Positions 2,980 through 8,247 of a stretch of 64,000 bases of DNA are shown here, piece after piece. This DNA comes from Maribacter sp. PR1 (lineage in GTDB: Bacteria; Bacteroidota; Bacteroidia; Flavobacteriales; Flavobacteriaceae), in contig NZ_JAQPCG010000005.1 of the NCBI RefSeq assembly GCF_028464145.1, positions 248,001 to 312,000 of the forward strand, in the 5' to 3' direction. Position numbers and translations under genes: made by a program. Below the pieces are notes generated by a model that saw only the letters and a list, made by a program, of their open reading frames with translations, had not been told where the DNA came from and searched no databases. The stretch's first letter is position 1. The number at the start of each line of letters is the position of its first letter.

Positions 2980-3002
2980 ATCCATATTATTTTGAATGGA
3001 AA

Positions 3003-3028
3003 GGCCGATGTAATAATCGGTCTTTTTT
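3003..3028 (+). terminator. Rho-independent terminator after the sugar operon
   Basis: GGCCGAT (3003-3009) pairs with ATCGGTC (3016-3022), with one G-T pair, across a six-base loop, and is followed by six T residues. It lies 23 nt after the oxidoreductase stop and separates this operon from the LytTR locus. Confidence 0.75.
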
Positions 3029-3080
3029 GTTTATTGGAACTGGCTGGTAAGGAATGTGTACATTCCATCATATAAAAACC

Positions 3081-3143
3081 ACAGTTGGGTCTTTCTTTTT
3101 ATAAATATCGACTATATTCATAGAAATTTGAACAACAAATAAA
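3081..3143 (+). promoter_or_regulatory. LytTR-type promoter element, copy 1
   Basis: This element begins ACAGTTGGGT (3081-3090), carries AAATTTGAA at 3124-3132 and ends AAATAAA at the start codon of the DUF2141 gene. The same blocks occur with identical spacing at 5656-5718 in front of the 2TM array; an ungapped hand alignment gives 40 of 63 identical positions. ACAGTTGGG fits the published LytTR-domain half-site consensus [TA][AC][CA]GTTN[AG][TG], and a LytTR regulator is encoded at 7492. I could not find the second half-site usually present 12-13 bp away. Binding by that regulator is inference. Confidence 0.6.
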
Positions 3144-3574
3144 TGTTTAACCCAATGAGAGGTATTCTTGCTGTTATCAGTGTTTTTTGGTTTTCCCTTG
3201 GAATTGCACAAACTGCGGCCTTTGGGGCAATTGAGCTTGAAATCACAGGAATGGAAAGTGATGAAGGTCAAATCCTAATCGGTCTTTACAATTCGGAGGA
3301 CCAATGGTTACAAAAACCATATAAGGGTGCGTTCGGTAAAATTGCCAATGGCGTTTCCAAGGTTATTTTTAGGGATATACCTGAAGGATTTTATGCCATT
3401 TCCGTTTTTCATGATAAAGATAACGACGGTCAACTTAAAAAGTTCTTAGGGGTGCCAACGGAGCGTTTTGGCGCATCTAATGATGCACCTTCCAGGTTTG
3501 GACCTCCTAGATGGAGCGATGCCAAGTTTCAATTATTGGGTGGAACATTAAAACATTCAATTCAAATACATTAA
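3143..3574 (+). CDS. DUF2141 domain-containing exported protein
   Basis: A 143-residue protein with a cleavable signal peptide (hydrophobic stretch about residues 6-26, GILAVISVFWFSLGIAQ). The mature part matches the DUF2141 pattern: an IELEITGM strand, a GQILIGLYN strand, the region around FRDIPEGFYAISVFHD and DKDNDGQLKKF with Asp-rich DxDxDG character, and a late FGPPRW motif. DUF2141 proteins are small periplasmic or outer-membrane-associated beta proteins of unknown function. It is the first gene after the LytTR-type promoter element and 14 nt ahead of the TPR gene, so it is probably a target or partner of the two-component system below. The ATG abuts the conserved AAATAAA, as is usual in this phylum, which lacks strong Shine-Dalgarno sites. 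Confidence 0.85.
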   Translation: MFNPMRGILAVISVFWFSLGIAQTAAFGAIELEITGMESDEGQILIGLYNSEDQWLQKPYKGAFGKIANGVSKVIFRDIPEGFYAISVFHDKDNDGQLKKFLGVPTERFGASNDAPSRFGPPRWSDAKFQLLGGTLKHSIQIH

Positions 3575-3588
3575 AAAATGTTGTTCAA

Positions 3589-4212
3589 ATGAAAAAAATC
3601 ATCACACTACTCGTCGTGGTGCTAACTACTAGCGCCTGGTCCCAAAATCAATTTGTAAATGGAATGCAGAAAGCGTTCTCCCTGTGGGGTGAGGGTAAGC
3701 CCATGGAAGCTTCCAATCTGTTCGAAAGAATAAGCAATGTGGAGCAGGATAATTGGCTACCCTATTATTACGTCGCTCAAATCAATACAATAGTTTCCTT
3801 TGGGGAAAAGGATGAAAAGAAATTAAAACAACAGTTGGATAAGGCACAGGAGTTTTTAGATATAGCAAAAAGGATTTCGCCTAAAAATCCAGAGATAATG
3901 GTGCAACAGGCAATGACCTATACCGCTTGGATTGCCTTTGATGGTGCTACATATGGGATGACCCATTCAGGAAAAGTGGTTGCCTTGTATAATGAAGCAC
4001 TACAATTGGCTCCGGAAAATCCAAGAGTTGTATTTTCCAAGGCAGAATGGGATATGGGCTCCGCGGCCTATTTTGGTCAGGATACGGCACCCTACTGCAA
4101 AGATATAGAGCGCTCCTTGGAACTTTTTGCTAACTTTAAAACGAAAGGTGCTTTTTATCCCGATTGGGGAGAAGACAGAGCCAGGACCATGTTAGATCAA
4201 TGTAAAGGTTAA
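3589..4212 (+). CDS. Secreted TPR-like protein
   Basis: A 207-residue protein starting MKKIITLLVVVLTTSAWSQ, a clear signal peptide with cleavage near residue 19. The open frame extends upstream to 3511, but that part lies inside the DUF2141 gene in another frame, so ATG 3589 is chosen. The mature chain is helical with TPR-like spacing: WGEGKPMEASNLFERI, then NEALQLAPENPRVVFSKAEW and related repeats, and a C-terminal segment with CKDIERSLELF and a final Cys. Proteins of this kind sit beside LytS-type kinases in many flavobacteria; they may sense or scaffold at the envelope, but no biochemical role is established here. It lies in an operon with DUF2141 (14 nt before) and the kinase (3 nt after). 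Confidence 0.8.
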   Translation: MKKIITLLVVVLTTSAWSQNQFVNGMQKAFSLWGEGKPMEASNLFERISNVEQDNWLPYYYVAQINTIVSFGEKDEKKLKQQLDKAQEFLDIAKRISPKNPEIMVQQAMTYTAWIAFDGATYGMTHSGKVVALYNEALQLAPENPRVVFSKAEWDMGSAAYFGQDTAPYCKDIERSLELFANFKTKGAFYPDWGEDRARTMLDQCKG

Positions 4213-4215
4213 GAA

Positions 4216-5538
4216 ATGGGAAAATTTCTAAAACTGTTAAGAATATCTATATATATAACAGCAGGGGTAACCCTGCTTAACCTATTTTTTTTCTTGGATG
4301 AGCCTTTGACCTGGCCCGTCTTTTTGGAATATCTAGGTATCTGCTTCTTGTTTAGTTTTGTACTCACCTTGGTAAATGCCTATTACTATGATGGTGTTTC
4401 CATAAGGTATGATTGGGCTACACAACCTAAAGCTCGGCTTTGGGTTGGGGCATTAGGCTCAGTTTTCCTGTCCATTATGGCTTTTGGACTGATACGGATG
4501 TTTTTATCCATGGTATTCTATGGAAATTCTTTCAGTGATTTCGTGGAGCACGAAGAGTCCTTTTCCTATGTATTTGCCATTATTATCACTGTTTTGATAT
4601 CCTTGTTTCTGCATGCCTTTCATTTTTATAAAGCCTTACAGGAAAACAAGGTCAAAGAGCAAAAAATTATTGCAGGAACGGCTTCCGCAAAGTTTGATGC
4701 ACTTAAGAATCAATTAGATCCTCATTTTCTATTCAATAGCCTTAATGTACTAACGAGTTTAATTGAGGAAGACCAGAATCAGGCTCAGAAATTTACGACA
4801 TCCTTATCTAAAGTATATCGATATGTTTTGGAGCAAAAAAACAAGGATTTGGTTTCGGTCGATGAGGAACTGCAATTTGCAAAAACGTATGTAAAACTTC
4901 TAAAGATGCGCTTTGAGGATAGTATTGTTTTGGACATACCTGATAAGGCGATTAACCCAGAAGCTAAAATTGTACCCCTATCCTTACAGTTGTTACTTGA
5001 AAATGCCGTAAAACATAATATTGTAAATGCAACAAAACCCTTACACATTAAAATCTTTGAAGAGGAAGGCAAGTTAAAGGTAAGCAACAACTTACAGGAA
5101 AAACAGGTCGTTAAAAAAAGTAGTGGCGTGGGACTTCAAAATATTCAGCAACGCTATGAGCTTTTGAGTACCCGAAAAATGGAGATTCATAAAACTGCCA
5201 CCGATTTTACCGTTGAACTCCCTATGTTGACCCAAAAAATATCGGTAGTTGAAACGCAAGATGACTTTATAGAGGACAAACGTTATCAAAAGGCAAAGGA
5301 GCGAGTCGAGAACATAAAAGGCTTTTACGGTAATCTTATTGCCTACTGTATTGTAATACCCTGCCTGGCAATACTAAATTATAACACAACGAGTTTTCCC
5401 TGGATTATCTTTCCTGTTGTAGGTTGGGGGTTCGGATTGCTTACCCATGGTCTTGAGGCCTTTGGTTACCATCCTATTTGGGGTAAAAGATGGGAAGAAA
5501 AGAAACTTCGTCAATTGATGGAAAAGGATGATTTTTAG
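4216..5538 (+). CDS. LytS-family histidine kinase with C-terminal 2TM domain
   Basis: A 440-residue membrane sensor kinase. Four hydrophobic segments occupy about residues 7-27, 35-54, 76-103 and 116-138. The His_kinase domain has the phosphoacceptor His170 in QLDPHFLFNSLN, an N-box LQLLLENAVKHN (257-268) and a G-box GVGLQNIQQRY (304-314), the pattern of LytS/YehU-type kinases that phosphorylate LytTR regulators. Residues 355-440 are a complete 2TM domain (AKERVENIKGFY, two membrane spans, then WEEKKLRQLMEKDDF), an unusual C-terminal addition. This domain is about 60 percent identical by hand alignment to the separate 2TM protein encoded next. Partner: the LytTR regulator at 7492. The gene follows the TPR gene after 3 nt, so the two are probably translationally coupled. 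Confidence 0.92.
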   Translation: MGKFLKLLRISIYITAGVTLLNLFFFLDEPLTWPVFLEYLGICFLFSFVLTLVNAYYYDGVSIRYDWATQPKARLWVGALGSVFLSIMAFGLIRMFLSMVFYGNSFSDFVEHEESFSYVFAIIITVLISLFLHAFHFYKALQENKVKEQKIIAGTASAKFDALKNQLDPHFLFNSLNVLTSLIEEDQNQAQKFTTSLSKVYRYVLEQKNKDLVSVDEELQFAKTYVKLLKMRFEDSIVLDIPDKAINPEAKIVPLSLQLLLENAVKHNIVNATKPLHIKIFEEEGKLKVSNNLQEKQVVKKSSGVGLQNIQQRYELLSTRKMEIHKTATDFTVELPMLTQKISVVETQDDFIEDKRYQKAKERVENIKGFYGNLIAYCIVIPCLAILNYNTTSFPWIIFPVVGWGFGLLTHGLEAFGYHPIWGKRWEEKKLRQLMEKDDF

Positions 5539-5655
5539 AGATTAATTCTCCAAAAACAGGGTTGGTTTTTCAATAATTTTTATCCTGTACATGCTTATTT
5601 TTTATGTATTTCTTATCATTTACTCTTCAGTTTTACAATCCATCCTAAAAAATAT

Positions 5656-5718
5656 ACAGTTGGGTACTTCCCTTTTTTAAAACATCTATACTTTGAGGAA
5701 ATTTGAAGTATAAATAAA
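5656..5718 (+). promoter_or_regulatory. LytTR-type promoter element, copy 2
   Basis: This is the second copy of the element at 3081. ACAGTTGGGT (5656-5665), AAATTTGAA (5699-5707) and AAATAAA (5712-5718) are identical and equally spaced. A TATACTTTG (5687-5695) resembles the flavobacterial -7 box TAnnTTTG with one extra base. The first 2TM gene starts 42 nt after the element. A partial TCAGTT lies 29 nt upstream (5627) but does not complete the consensus. The element implies co-regulation of the 2TM array with the upstream DUF2141-TPR-kinase unit. Confidence 0.6.
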
Positions 5719-5759: not shown

Positions 5760-6038
5760 ATGGAAACTACGAATGAATTTAAATACAGAAGAGCAAAGGA
5801 AAGAGTTCAGGCCATAAAGGGGTTTTACAGTAATTTAATGGCGTATTGTATCATAATCCCATTTTTGGCTTGGATAAATTATAATACAACTAGTTTTCCA
5901 TGGGCCATATTTCCTGCAATAGGCTGGGGAATAGGATTGCTAGGTCATTGGTCCAATGCCTATGGGTATAACCCATTATTTGGTAGGGACTGGGAAAAGA
6001 GAAAATTGGAGGAGTTTATGAAAAGGGACGAATTTTAA
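5760..6038 (+). CDS. 2TM domain protein 1
   Basis: A 92-residue protein that is entirely one 2TM domain: a basic amphipathic lead (RRAKERVQAIKGFYSNL), two membrane spans around residues 24-40 and 44-62 separated by the NYNTTSFPW turn, the signature GWGIGLLGH, and a C-terminal helix (GRDWEKRKLEEFM). It is the closest relative of the domain at the C-terminus of the kinase, sharing the NYNTTSFPW turn exactly. It is the first gene of the second transcription unit, 42 nt after the LytTR-type element. The function of 2TM proteins is unknown; a membrane-embedded modulator or partner of the kinase is an inference from fusion and neighbourhood. Confidence 0.88.
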   Translation: METTNEFKYRRAKERVQAIKGFYSNLMAYCIIIPFLAWINYNTTSFPWAIFPAIGWGIGLLGHWSNAYGYNPLFGRDWEKRKLEEFMKRDEF

Positions 6039-6087
6039 GGAATAAAGTATCTTTAAATAATATAAACAATCAAGAAACCAACGAGTT

Positions 6088-6390
6088 ATGATAAATAAAA
6101 ATCAAGAATCTAAATATTATCGGGCAAAGGAACGTGTGGAATGTATAAAGAAGTTCTATACTAGTTTATTATCCTACGTCATTTTTATCGCCTTTTTGGC
6201 GGGATTGAATTATTGGATCGATGAGTGGAATTACCCATGGTTTTTGTGGGCAGCATTTGGATGGGGAATAGGTTTGATTTTTCAAGCGGTAAAGGCCTTT
6301 GGTTTCAACCCAATACTTGGTAAGGATTGGGAAACCAGAAAAATAAATGAACTGATGAAAGAGGAGGAGGAACAAACAAAATGGAGGTAA
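6088..6390 (+). CDS. 2TM domain protein 2
   Basis: A 100-residue single 2TM domain: YYRAKERVECIKKFYTSL, two membrane spans (about 25-42 and 48-66), GWGIGLIFQ at the end of the second, and WETRKINELMKEEEE. The usual His after GIGL is replaced by Gln here (IFQ). It starts 49 nt after the first 2TM gene. Its last codons lie over the purine-rich GAGGAGGAGG stretch (6361-6370) that can serve as ribosome-binding site for the next gene, and its stop overlaps the next gene. Function unknown; it belongs to the tandem array served by the LytTR-type promoter. Confidence 0.87.
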   Translation: MINKNQESKYYRAKERVECIKKFYTSLLSYVIFIAFLAGLNYWIDEWNYPWFLWAAFGWGIGLIFQAVKAFGFNPILGKDWETRKINELMKEEEEQTKWR

Positions 6391-6725
6391 TGGAAAGAAA
6401 TGATAAAAAATTGAAAAGAGCCAAGGTAAGGCTAAAGGAATTAAAAGGATTCTATTGGCATTTAGCAGCCTATATCGGAGTCAATAGTTTTATTACGATT
6501 TCCACGATTATAGGTAGAATGAGCAACGGCGTGAGTTTTTTGGACGTTTTGGATTTTGGAACGTTCGCTGTGTGGTTTTTTTGGGGAATCGGACTATTTT
6601 TCCATGGGATAAAGGTCTTCTCCTATAATCCTATTTTTTCCAAGGAATGGGAAGAACGTCAAATTCAAAAGTATATAGAAAAAGATAAGCGTGAAGCTGA
6701 AAAATATGGTAGAAATGGAAGGTAA
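6381..6725 (+). CDS. 2TM domain protein 3
   Basis: A 114-residue single 2TM domain: KRAKVRLKELKGFYWHL, a first span AAYIGVNSFITISTI, a longer loop than in copies 1 and 2 (GRMSNGVSFLDVLDFG), a second span ending FFWGIGLFFHGIKVF, and WEERQIQKYIEKDKRE. Two start codons fit. ATG 6381 is 10 nt after GAGGAGGAGG and overlaps the previous gene by 10 nt. ATG 6390 overlaps the previous TAA by one base but leaves only 2 nt to GGAGG, so 6381 is preferred. The overlap indicates translational coupling. It resembles copy 5 most (FATWFFWGIGLFFHG type). Confidence 0.85.
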   Translation: MEVMERNDKKLKRAKVRLKELKGFYWHLAAYIGVNSFITISTIIGRMSNGVSFLDVLDFGTFAVWFFWGIGLFFHGIKVFSYNPIFSKEWEERQIQKYIEKDKREAEKYGRNGR

Positions 6726-7080
6726 ACCCCAACAATCGGAAAAATTATTAAAAGCTCGTAAGCGAGTGAACGATATGAAAAAATTCTATCGTCATCTGAG
6801 AATTTATATAATTATTAATGTGCTATTATTAATGGTAAAATTAAATTTATTTAATTGGTTCAAAGATGATTATGATTGGATGCAGAACGCTAACTTCAAT
6901 GACTGGATGGGTTGGAACCTTCTAGGAACTCCCGTTCTTTGGGGAATAGGGTTATTGGGACATGCGATTTATGTTTTTAAATTCAAATCAAAATCATGGG
7001 AGGAACTCAAACCAAAATTCATCAGGGATTGGGAAAAAAGACAGCTGGATAAATTTTTAAAGGAAGAAAATAAGGACTGA
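6715..7080 (+). CDS. 2TM domain protein 4
   Basis: A 121-residue 2TM protein: LKARKRVNDMKKFYRHLRIY, a first span YIIINVLLLMV, an unusually long hydrophilic loop (WFKDDYDWMQNANFNDWMGW), a second span with PVLWGIGLLGHAIYVF, and an extra KSKSWEELKPK segment before WEKRQLDKFLKEE. The frame opens further upstream (GTG 6691, ATG 6706), but ATG 6715 gives the usual short lead and an 11-nt overlap with copy 3. Start choice is uncertain by up to eight codons. It ends in TGA overlapping the ATG of copy 5 by one base, another coupling signal. Function unknown. Confidence 0.82.
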   Translation: MEGKPQQSEKLLKARKRVNDMKKFYRHLRIYIIINVLLLMVKLNLFNWFKDDYDWMQNANFNDWMGWNLLGTPVLWGIGLLGHAIYVFKFKSKSWEELKPKFIRDWEKRQLDKFLKEENKD

Positions 7081-7409
7081 TGGAACTAGAAAACAATAGC
7101 AAGAACACCAAGTTGAAATTGGCGCATAAAAGGTTGGAGGAATTAAAAGGTTTTTACACGCACCTTACAATTTATTTGGTTATAAATACTGTACTCCTGA
7201 TATTGAAATTTATAGGTAATTCTTATTATGGAGAGACATTTATGGGCCCCGTTTGGCATTTTAGTACGTTTGCCACTTGGTTCTTTTGGGGAATTGGGTT
7301 GTTCTTTCATGGGATGAAAGTATTCTATGGTCGTACTCTTTTTTCAAAAAACTGGGAAGAGCGCCAACTACAGAAATTCTTGAAAGAAGATGAGAAGAAA
7401 AACAATTAA
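7080..7409 (+). CDS. 2TM domain protein 5
   Basis: A 109-residue single 2TM domain: KLAHKRLEELKGFYTHLTIY, a first span LVINTVLLIL, a loop with YYGETFMGPVWH, a second span ATWFFWGIGLFFHGMKVF, and WEERQLQKFLKEDEKK. Its ATG shares one base with the stop of copy 4 (TGATG). It is the last 2TM gene; the LytTR regulator follows after 82 nt that hold a separate promoter-like box. Together with the kinase C-terminus, this gives six 2TM domains encoded side by side. Confidence 0.87.
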   Translation: MELENNSKNTKLKLAHKRLEELKGFYTHLTIYLVINTVLLILKFIGNSYYGETFMGPVWHFSTFATWFFWGIGLFFHGMKVFYGRTLFSKNWEERQLQKFLKEDEKKNN

Positions 7410-7491: not shown

Positions 7492-8247
7492 ATGAACGTA
7501 ATAATTATCGAAGACGAAAAGCCGGCAGCAAGAAGACTGGGAAGGCTGTTATCTGATTTAAATGTAGAGGTTACCACCATGCTGCATTCGGTGGAAGAAT
7601 CATTATCCTGGTTCCAGGAGAATGAACATCCAGACCTTATTTTTTTAGATATTCAACTTTCAGATGGACTCTCTTTTGAAATCTTCGACATTGTTGACGT
7701 AAAAAGTGCCATCATATTTACCACAGCCTATGATGAATATGCCCTTCAAGCCTTTAAACTTAATAGTATTGATTATTTATTGAAGCCAATTGACGATGAA
7801 GAATTGGAAAGTGCCGTGAATAAATTCCGTAGTTTAAAACCGGAGTCCAAAAAACTCTCCTTGGACTTTGAGGACATCAAAAAACTTTTGGTAAACCCCC
7901 TGGAAAGGGAATACAAAAAAAGATTTACGGCTAAAGTAGGACAGCATTTGAAAATCATCAATGCAGATGATGTAGAGTGTTTCTATAGTGAAAATAAGGG
8001 TACGTATGCGGCAACTTCCGACGGCAGGAATTATCTTTTGGATACCACTTTGGAAAATTTGGAAGAAGAGTTACAACCCAATACTTTTTTCAGGGTAAGC
8101 CGCAAATTTTACGTCAATATTAATTTTATAAAGGATATTATTTCCTACACCAACTCTAGGTTGCAAATAAAATTGAACTCTTTTTCGGAACAGGAGATTA
8201 TTGTAAGTAGGGAGCGTGTAAAGGACTTTAAACTTTGGTTGGAATAA
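7492..8247 (+). CDS. LytTR-family response regulator
   Basis: A 251-residue regulator. The receiver domain (1-115) has the acidic pair Glu7/Asp8 (IIEDEKPAARR), phosphoacceptor Asp53 (LIFLDIQLSDG), Thr77 (IIFTTAYDEYA) and Lys98 (LLKPID). After a linker, residues about 148-250 are a LytTR DNA-binding domain (KIINADDVECFYSENKGTYA, then FRVSRKFYVNINFIKDI and VSRERVKDFKLWL). LytTR proteins bind direct repeats of a nine-base motif; that motif is present once in each of the promoter elements at 3081 and 5656. It pairs with the LytS-type kinase at 4216. The gene ends 11 nt from the convergent LETM1-related gene with no clear terminator between. Confidence 0.93.
   Translation: MNVIIIEDEKPAARRLGRLLSDLNVEVTTMLHSVEESLSWFQENEHPDLIFLDIQLSDGLSFEIFDIVDVKSAIIFTTAYDEYALQAFKLNSIDYLLKPIDDEELESAVNKFRSLKPESKKLSLDFEDIKKLLVNPLEREYKKRFTAKVGQHLKIINADDVECFYSENKGTYAATSDGRNYLLDTTLENLEEELQPNTFFRVSRKFYVNINFIKDIISYTNSRLQIKLNSFSEQEIIVSRERVKDFKLWLE

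Follow-up and report, generated by a model that had tools for sequence, protein, structure and literature searches.

The DNA studied here, a stretch of 64,000 nucleotides (nt) of Maribacter sp. PR1 (C19:248001-312000 in a genome of 4.73 Mb and 23 contigs; called the window below), carries two copies of one promoter-like element in a single locus, which raises the question of which protein acts on them and which genes they serve. On the + strand the locus encodes, in this order, a DUF2141 protein, a TPR-like protein, a histidine kinase that ends in a 2TM domain, a series of five stand-alone 2TM proteins, and a LytTR response regulator. One copy (site A) lies before the DUF2141 gene and the other (site B) behind the kinase gene. 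Most likely, each element is a promoter that depends on activation by the LytTR regulator encoded at 7492-8247, which would bind there, an explanation in which, taken as a whole, we have high confidence.

An initial annotation had counted 40 identical positions out of 63, without gaps, between 3081-3143 and 5656-5718, and this count was reproduced here, as were the blocks ACAGTTGGGT, AAATTTGAA, and AAATAAA, which the two copies share at equal spacing. When the first copy was slid along both strands of the window, the next best match reached 34 of 63, and only the two copies reach 40. The likeness runs 22 nt further upstream than had been stated: a repeat search paired 3059-3105 with 5634-5680 at 74%, and 56 of 85 positions are identical between 3059-3143 and 5634-5718. 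The short core ACAGTTGGGTNNTT, with up to two mismatches allowed, is not significant by itself in the window (9 matches versus 7.15 expected, with as many in 31 of 100 shuffles), and it is the full layout that gives significance. A scan of the window for promoters of the sigma-70 hexamer consensus returned 19 against 17.6 expected and is uninformative in this phylum.

The annotation had found only one half-site per copy and had suspected a binding mode other than the classical direct repeat. Neither point holds, since each copy possesses an upstream half, ACATTCCAT in site A and ACAATCCAT in site B, and the layout is that of the classical direct repeat. Two 9-bp direct repeats stand 12 bp apart, within the 11-13 bp expected of a LytTR-bound promoter, and 21 bp from start to start in both copies and in an ungapped family profile, in which the consensus of the upstream half-site is ACAATTCAT, exactly 21 bp before the downstream one. 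Among the shared blocks, the half-site ACAGTTGGG stands as part of the regulator site; AAATTTG does not, being the -7 box of the core promoter, and AAATAAA, although truly common to the copies, belongs to a generally A-rich leader. Transcription is predicted to start at about 3135 from promoter A and at about 5710 from promoter B. With positions numbered after the Flavobacterium johnsoniae -7 box, its G taken as -5 (PMC6847099), a numbering that depends on the predicted start site, the repeats have their midpoint near -60, the box spans -12 to -5, and between them lies a T-run at about -37 to -33. This run starts 6 bp (site A) or 8 bp (site B) past the repeat, which, given the predicted start, places the repeats just upstream of the -33 region.

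Relatives of the kinase occur in numerous genomes of the family. To what extent this layout is a family trait was seen in 80 named loci of kinase relatives with flanks of up to 10 kb (the best 80 of 577 confirmed). The core ACARTTSGGT, with at most one mismatch, occurs 461 times in these loci versus 264 times for the reversed pattern, and the distance from the half-site start to ATTTG is exactly 45 nt in 51 cases, while any other distance is found at most 5 times and any in the reversed control at most 4 times. A sequence-only profile of 80 positions was built from an alignment of 33 of these 51 sites, none of them from the Maribacter genome itself; the 18 left out comprise 7 sites away from the kinase operon, 1 chance match in coding sequence, and 10 more operon sites, omitted by no strict rule. 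Up to an E value of 10, this held-out profile finds only the two copies in the window (A, 1.8e-14; B, 1.3e-17). At the scale of the genome, site B (9.5e-16) and site A (1.3e-12) are followed by C19:188692-188769 (6.2e-12), which precedes another DUF2141 gene, by C19:168090-168155 (2.1e-4), which precedes a DUF2807 gene adjoining PspC and PadR genes, and by C19:188785-188857 (0.026), which is divergent from the third match and precedes the gene of a 719-residue TonB-dependent receptor. All five matches at E < 0.03 lie on C19, three of them at E < 1e-11 in 4.73 Mb, and the matches from E = 0.14 up look like noise. Random occurrence across the genome, which the initial annotation had named as an outcome that would speak against its proposal, is thus not what was found: strong matches are few.

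In the 80 loci, nhmmer (E <= 0.01) reported 126 sites, of which 122 fit the profile without an insertion or deletion. Scored against [TA][AC][CA]GTTN[AG][TG], the LytTR consensus as the initial annotation gave it, the downstream half-site matches at 7 or more of 9 positions in all 126 hits and the upstream one in 118, a count to be read with the profile itself favoring such sites; 6% of 20,000 random 9-mers reach 7 of 9. At least one site is present in 76 of the 80 loci, site A in 70 and site B in 30, and two of the four loci without any begin less than 500 bp from the kinase match. The next long open reading frame within 450 nt of a site encodes a TPR protein in 39 of the 126 cases, the commonest gene behind the sites, a kinase or 2TM protein in 44, a DUF2141 protein in 18, a TonB receptor in 20, and none of these in 5; relatives of the TPR-like protein occur in 54 of the 80 loci. 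Among the 93 sites unused in training, 88 precede one of these four gene types, including all 20 receptor sites.

Which genes are reached away from the kinase operon was read from 60 hits in 60 family genomes, chosen by profile hit. The corresponding 60 stretches gave 61 sites in 58 stretches, one site being seen twice and two being apparently the operon's own. Eight further hits fell outside this batch (three in genome G006 and one each in G051, G002, G012, G057, and G059), and those of the last four genomes all precede the receptor by their coordinates. TonB receptor (20), DUF2141 (12), and DUF2807 (10) genes account for 42 of the 61 sites. A receptor orthologue (E <= 1e-100) is present in 31 of the 60 genomes, all 31 among the 44 that have the regulator, and in 24 of the 31 a site at E <= 1e-3 lies just upstream, as judged by comparing coordinates by eye. 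From these data we infer a small and conserved regulon that consists of the DUF2141/TPR/kinase/2TM/regulator operon, one TonB-dependent receptor, a second DUF2141 gene, and a DUF2807 gene. The targets point to the cell envelope: the receptor belongs to the outer membrane, the DUF2141 and TPR proteins have N-termini that resemble signal peptides, and the DUF2807 gene neighbors PspC. The DUF2141 family is described as lacking a known function (PMC5989583). The computation thus supports a LytTR-type site, the co-regulation of the two units, and a loop that includes the kinase, as the initial annotation had supposed; loci outside the window also belong to the loop.

Some further sites were seen beside these targets. 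In the Maribacter genome, the second DUF2141 gene and the TonB receptor gene are divergent, with back-to-back sites 15 bp apart (L150, G000:C19:184000-194000), and divergent site pairs also occur in G026, G032, L068, and L070. In three genomes (L193, L198, and L227), a site precedes small proteins whose N-terminal parts are somewhat similar and begin like a signal peptide; they may be one more accessory target.

The distribution of the sites across genomes follows that of the regulator. Strong matches to the kinase and to the regulator (E < 1e-80) were found in the same 44 of 60 family genomes. Of these, 42 have a site at E <= 1e-3, compared with 2 of the 16 genomes without the regulator (Fisher's test, 8e-10, ignoring relatedness). 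A sample of 196 genomes from the order, which overlaps with the family sample, gave a site in 27 of 28 genomes with the regulator (E <= 1e-75) versus 3 of 168 without it. These three exceptions carry regulator orthologues of 51-52% identity that fell just short of the cut-off (E = 2.5e-74, 6.6e-72, and 1.4e-69). Their sites precede a TPR gene, the kinase gene, and a TPR-like gene, respectively; in the first two the regulator is in the same operon, and in the third it lies elsewhere, about 45 kb from the site.

The core promoter stands out at position -12. Compared with the Flavobacterium sigma-A -7 box, TAHHTTTG, both copies have AHHTTTG but a G in place of T-12. Among the 51 sites, which were found regardless of that base, position -12 is G or C in 50, A in 1, and T in none, and among the 126 profile hits it is G or C in 113; of 289 other AHHTTTG strings that these loci contain close upstream of open reading frames, 146 have T there, 22 have G, and 46 have C. 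The promoters at hand resemble those of Flavobacterium sigma-A in A-11, the TTT, and G-5 of the box and in a poorly defined -33 element, and depart from them at T-12, described as nearly invariant in F. johnsoniae (PMC6847099) and mostly replaced here by G or C. We read this box as a core promoter weak by design; an alternative sigma factor may instead serve it.

Taken together, these observations fit the following course of events. The kinase (4216-5538) would phosphorylate the regulator, a dimer of which would bind the two direct repeats centered near -60 and recruit RNA polymerase to a core promoter that lacks T-12 and has a T-run alone at -33. From site A, this would start the DUF2141/TPR/kinase operon and so give positive autoregulation; site B would be an extra promoter under the same control for the 2TM array and, by read-through, for the regulator gene. 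The same regulator would drive the TonB-dependent receptor, the second DUF2141 gene, and the DUF2807 gene elsewhere in the genome. The kinase and receiver motifs of a two-component pair are intact: the H, N, and G box motifs are all present in the kinase, and the regulator has a receiver (Response_reg at residues 3-109, E = 6.1e-14) with a phospho-acceptor D, in front of a LytTR domain, D53 and K98 being invariant across 19 aligned sequences. In a search of PDB sequences with the regulator, all 60 best stretches among the matches listed fall within residues 1-140, the receiver part.

Several results weigh against this explanation. The genome counts for co-occurrence take no account of relatedness, and weak sites are lost under the stricter filters that were applied whenever more than 40 genomes were searched. 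Two family genomes (G011 and G033) have the regulator with no site at E <= 1e-3, only weak local ones, and in G177, one of the 28 order genomes with the regulator, no site was found. Among the sites away from the operon, 19 of 61 lack a matching target type, and 7 of the 31 receptor orthologues lack a site at E <= 1e-3. In the Maribacter genome itself, the receptor's site is weak (E = 0.026) and the upstream half-sites are diverged, fitting the consensus at 7 of 9 positions only.

The remaining points bear on the identity of the binder. Another LytTR protein could bind the sites, because the genome encodes 15 LytTR domains; only one of them lies in the window (7948-8241), the initial annotation being right that the window's sole LytTR regulator belongs to this locus. 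Moreover, G006, which gave no strong hit to the kinase or the regulator, keeps a strong site (E = 2e-12). In that genome, sites precede DUF2141 and DUF2807 genes, and the TPR match covers residues 1-62 only and gives way to an unrelated gene (L180, G006:C8:36000-50000; L181), a shortening that suggests a recent loss by deletion. In the other genome with a site and no regulator, G051, whose completeness is 88%, the site is weak and lies before a receptor-like gene. That a different factor, whether another LytTR protein or an unrelated one that co-occurs, binds the sites while the neighboring regulator is merely a member of the regulon is nonetheless improbable in our view: the presence of the site tracks the regulator across the overlapping family and order samples, including the three diverged orthologues outside the family, whereas the 16 family genomes without the regulator still hold 3 to 26 loose candidates each for a similar response regulator (not confirmed relatives). 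Apart from this question, G006 offers a natural test of the fate of orphan LytTR sites. Another LytTR gene of the Maribacter genome (G000:C19:162679-162933) was noted about 5 kb from the DUF2807 site.

The regulator might also bind and repress, or switch between repression and activation, as AgrA is described as holding down bsaA (PMC4227749). In that case, however, the site lies downstream of the bsaA promoter, while the sites described here precede the core promoter by a constant distance, with their center near -60, and the -7 box deviates from the consensus at -12. An upstream site at fixed distance and an off-consensus box make the layout of an activator, so that activation is favored and repression has only a small likelihood. 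Finally, that the copies are alike merely through duplication of a segment together with 2TM coding sequence, with no shared function, is scarcely credible: the first stand-alone 2TM protein shares 59% identity with the C-terminal domain of the kinase, hence a gene duplication at the locus, but the positions common to the copies are largely family-conserved while the spacer before the -7 box differs, site A precedes DUF2141 rather than a 2TM gene, and a profile made from other genomes recognizes each copy as a full site.

The two sites appear to differ in age. Site A is widespread and is also found outside the family, where one kinase (L248) lacks the 2TM C-terminus and another (L247) has a different hydrophobic C-terminus; in these two loci, the interval from kinase to regulator gave no match to a stand-alone 2TM gene. 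Because it is widespread and occurs outside the family, where one kinase is without the 2TM C-terminus, site A is probably the older, autoregulatory promoter. Site B, on the other hand, is present in 30 of the 80 loci, and 28 of these 30 belong to the 35 loci whose kinases are nearest to that of the window (L039-L073). All 80 loci have one or more 2TM genes between kinase and regulator, but where site B occurs the array is longer (mean of 4.0 versus 2.1 genes), an association that may reflect a single event since it largely concerns one group of relatives. The most plausible view is that site B was added later and connects the enlarged 2TM array directly to the same regulator.

A joint and tentative proposal, which we hold to be possible though rather unlikely, goes further on both site B and the -7 box. 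Site B would be a clade-specific feedback in which the phosphorylated regulator raises the stand-alone 2TM proteins relative to the kinase; by pairing with the kinase in the membrane, free 2TM proteins would retune it or shut it off, which would make the array a governor of the sensor, membrane-borne and adjustable. The -7 box without T-12 would at the same time mark Flavobacteriia promoters that are silent without their activator.

The features of the locus are collected in Table 1. A terminator-like hairpin at 2998-3027 separates it from the oxidoreductase gene upstream. For the DUF2141 gene, the ATG at 3155 is more likely the start than that at 3143, because it lies 25 nt past the G of the -7 box, as against 13 nt for the latter (24-30 nt being common in relatives), and because the N-terminus predicted from it is more signal-peptide-like. 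The kinase's named relatives are Flavobacteriaceae. The LytS-type 5TM sensor domain, a Pfam family, was not found in the kinase, for which Pfam at E <= 0.001 reported only His_kinase and the C-terminal 2TM domain. A 12-nt inverted repeat (3126-3137 and 3579-3590) was also noted and is estimated to be at about chance level in 4 kb.

Table 1. Predicted features of the two promoters and genes of the locus (positions in the window)
Feature	Position	Strand	Basis or remark
Site A upstream LytTR half-site ACATTCCAT	3060..3068	+	Predicted -75 to -67; 21 bp before half-site 2; LytTR consensus 7/9
Site A downstream LytTR half-site ACAGTTGGG	3081..3089	+	Predicted -54 to -46; LytTR consensus 9/9; held-out profile match 3059-3132
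T-run, -33 region of promoter A	3096..3100	+	T-run conserved in family profile; position from sequence
-7 box GAAATTTG of promoter A, G replacing T at -12	3123..3130	+	ATTTG at fixed 45 nt from half-site start
DUF2141 protein, first gene of the operon	3155..3574	+	PF09912, E = 6.6e-28
TPR-like protein, probably exported	3589..4212	+	Weak TPR_14 match, under family cut-off
Histidine kinase, hydrophobic N-terminal region and C-terminal 2TM domain	4216..5538	+	His_kinase 158-236, 2TM 358-436
Site B upstream LytTR half-site ACAATCCAT	5635..5643	+	21 bp before half-site 2; consensus 7/9
Site B downstream LytTR half-site ACAGTTGGG	5656..5664	+	Consensus 9/9; held-out profile match 5633-5710
T-run, -33 region of promoter B	5673..5678	+	As promoter A
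-7 box GAAATTTG of promoter B	5698..5705	+	Shared with promoter A, G at -12
Five stand-alone 2TM genes (5760..7409)	5760-6038, 6088-6390, 6381-6725, 6715-7080, 7080-7409	+	PF13239 in each
Response regulator (receiver plus LytTR DNA-binding domain), proposed to bind both sites	7492..8247	+	Response_reg and LytTR

The site type and the circuit are of a known kind, namely autoregulation by a LytTR two-component system. AgrA of Staphylococcus aureus is likewise a two-component LytTR regulator that targets its own operon from direct repeats just upstream of a suboptimal promoter, the promoter-proximal repeats being described as centered near -60 (PMC4227749). It belongs to another phylum with another core promoter, in contrast to the -7 box without T-12 seen here; moreover, no peptide-signal gene was recognized in the list of open reading frames of the window, and the kinase here has a 2TM domain at its C-terminus, with stand-alone 2TM proteins encoded alongside it. 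LRS systems such as HdrRM and BrsRM are described as autoregulated from 9-bp direct repeats that mostly have 12 bp between them and immediately precede the -35 element of their own promoter, with membrane proteins in the operon; their autoregulation is positive, matching what we propose for this locus (PMC6193735). LRS regulators, however, lack a receiver and are held by an inhibitor membrane protein, whereas a receiver and a histidine kinase are present here. BtsS/BtsR and YpdA/YpdB also pair a histidine kinase with a LytTR regulator and have conserved motifs at the transporter genes yjiY and yhjX (PMC5552118). They differ from the present system, in whose kinase Pfam reports no LytS-type sensor domain, in that the latter has as its transporter target a TonB receptor of the outer membrane, joined by DUF2141 and DUF2807 genes, and has sites at its own operon.

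No such LytTR regulon was found for Flavobacteriaceae in the open-licence papers searched, nor were the regulon composition, the box without T-12, or the internal promoter of the 2TM array. LytTR, LytR, and DUF2141 are absent from the main text of a promoter study in Flavobacterium psychrophilum (PMC9723704), and the nearest precedent is a mention of direct repeats at LRS-like operons of Bacteroides (PMC6193735). Two candidates were set aside. A PSP paper in which a "2TM domain" appears along with LytTR concerns other systems (PMC11237479). The LytTR regulator and kinase FJOH_RS09515/RS09520 of F. johnsoniae, described with parallel mutations (PMC10197871), are probably another pair, because the neighboring tags leave no room for the 2TM genes present in 80 of 80 loci.

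The site definition is sharp enough for regulons to be read straight from genomes. The regulon ties three families without known function (DUF2141, DUF2807, and 2TM) and one TonB-dependent receptor to a single sensor. In this phylum, where regulated promoters are poorly defined, a G or C at -12 could help to recognize activator-dependent ones by sequence. The two copies belong to a small, family-wide set of switch sites, apparently under the control of the regulator encoded next to them, that link a membrane sensor with an outer-membrane transporter and several uncharacterized envelope proteins.

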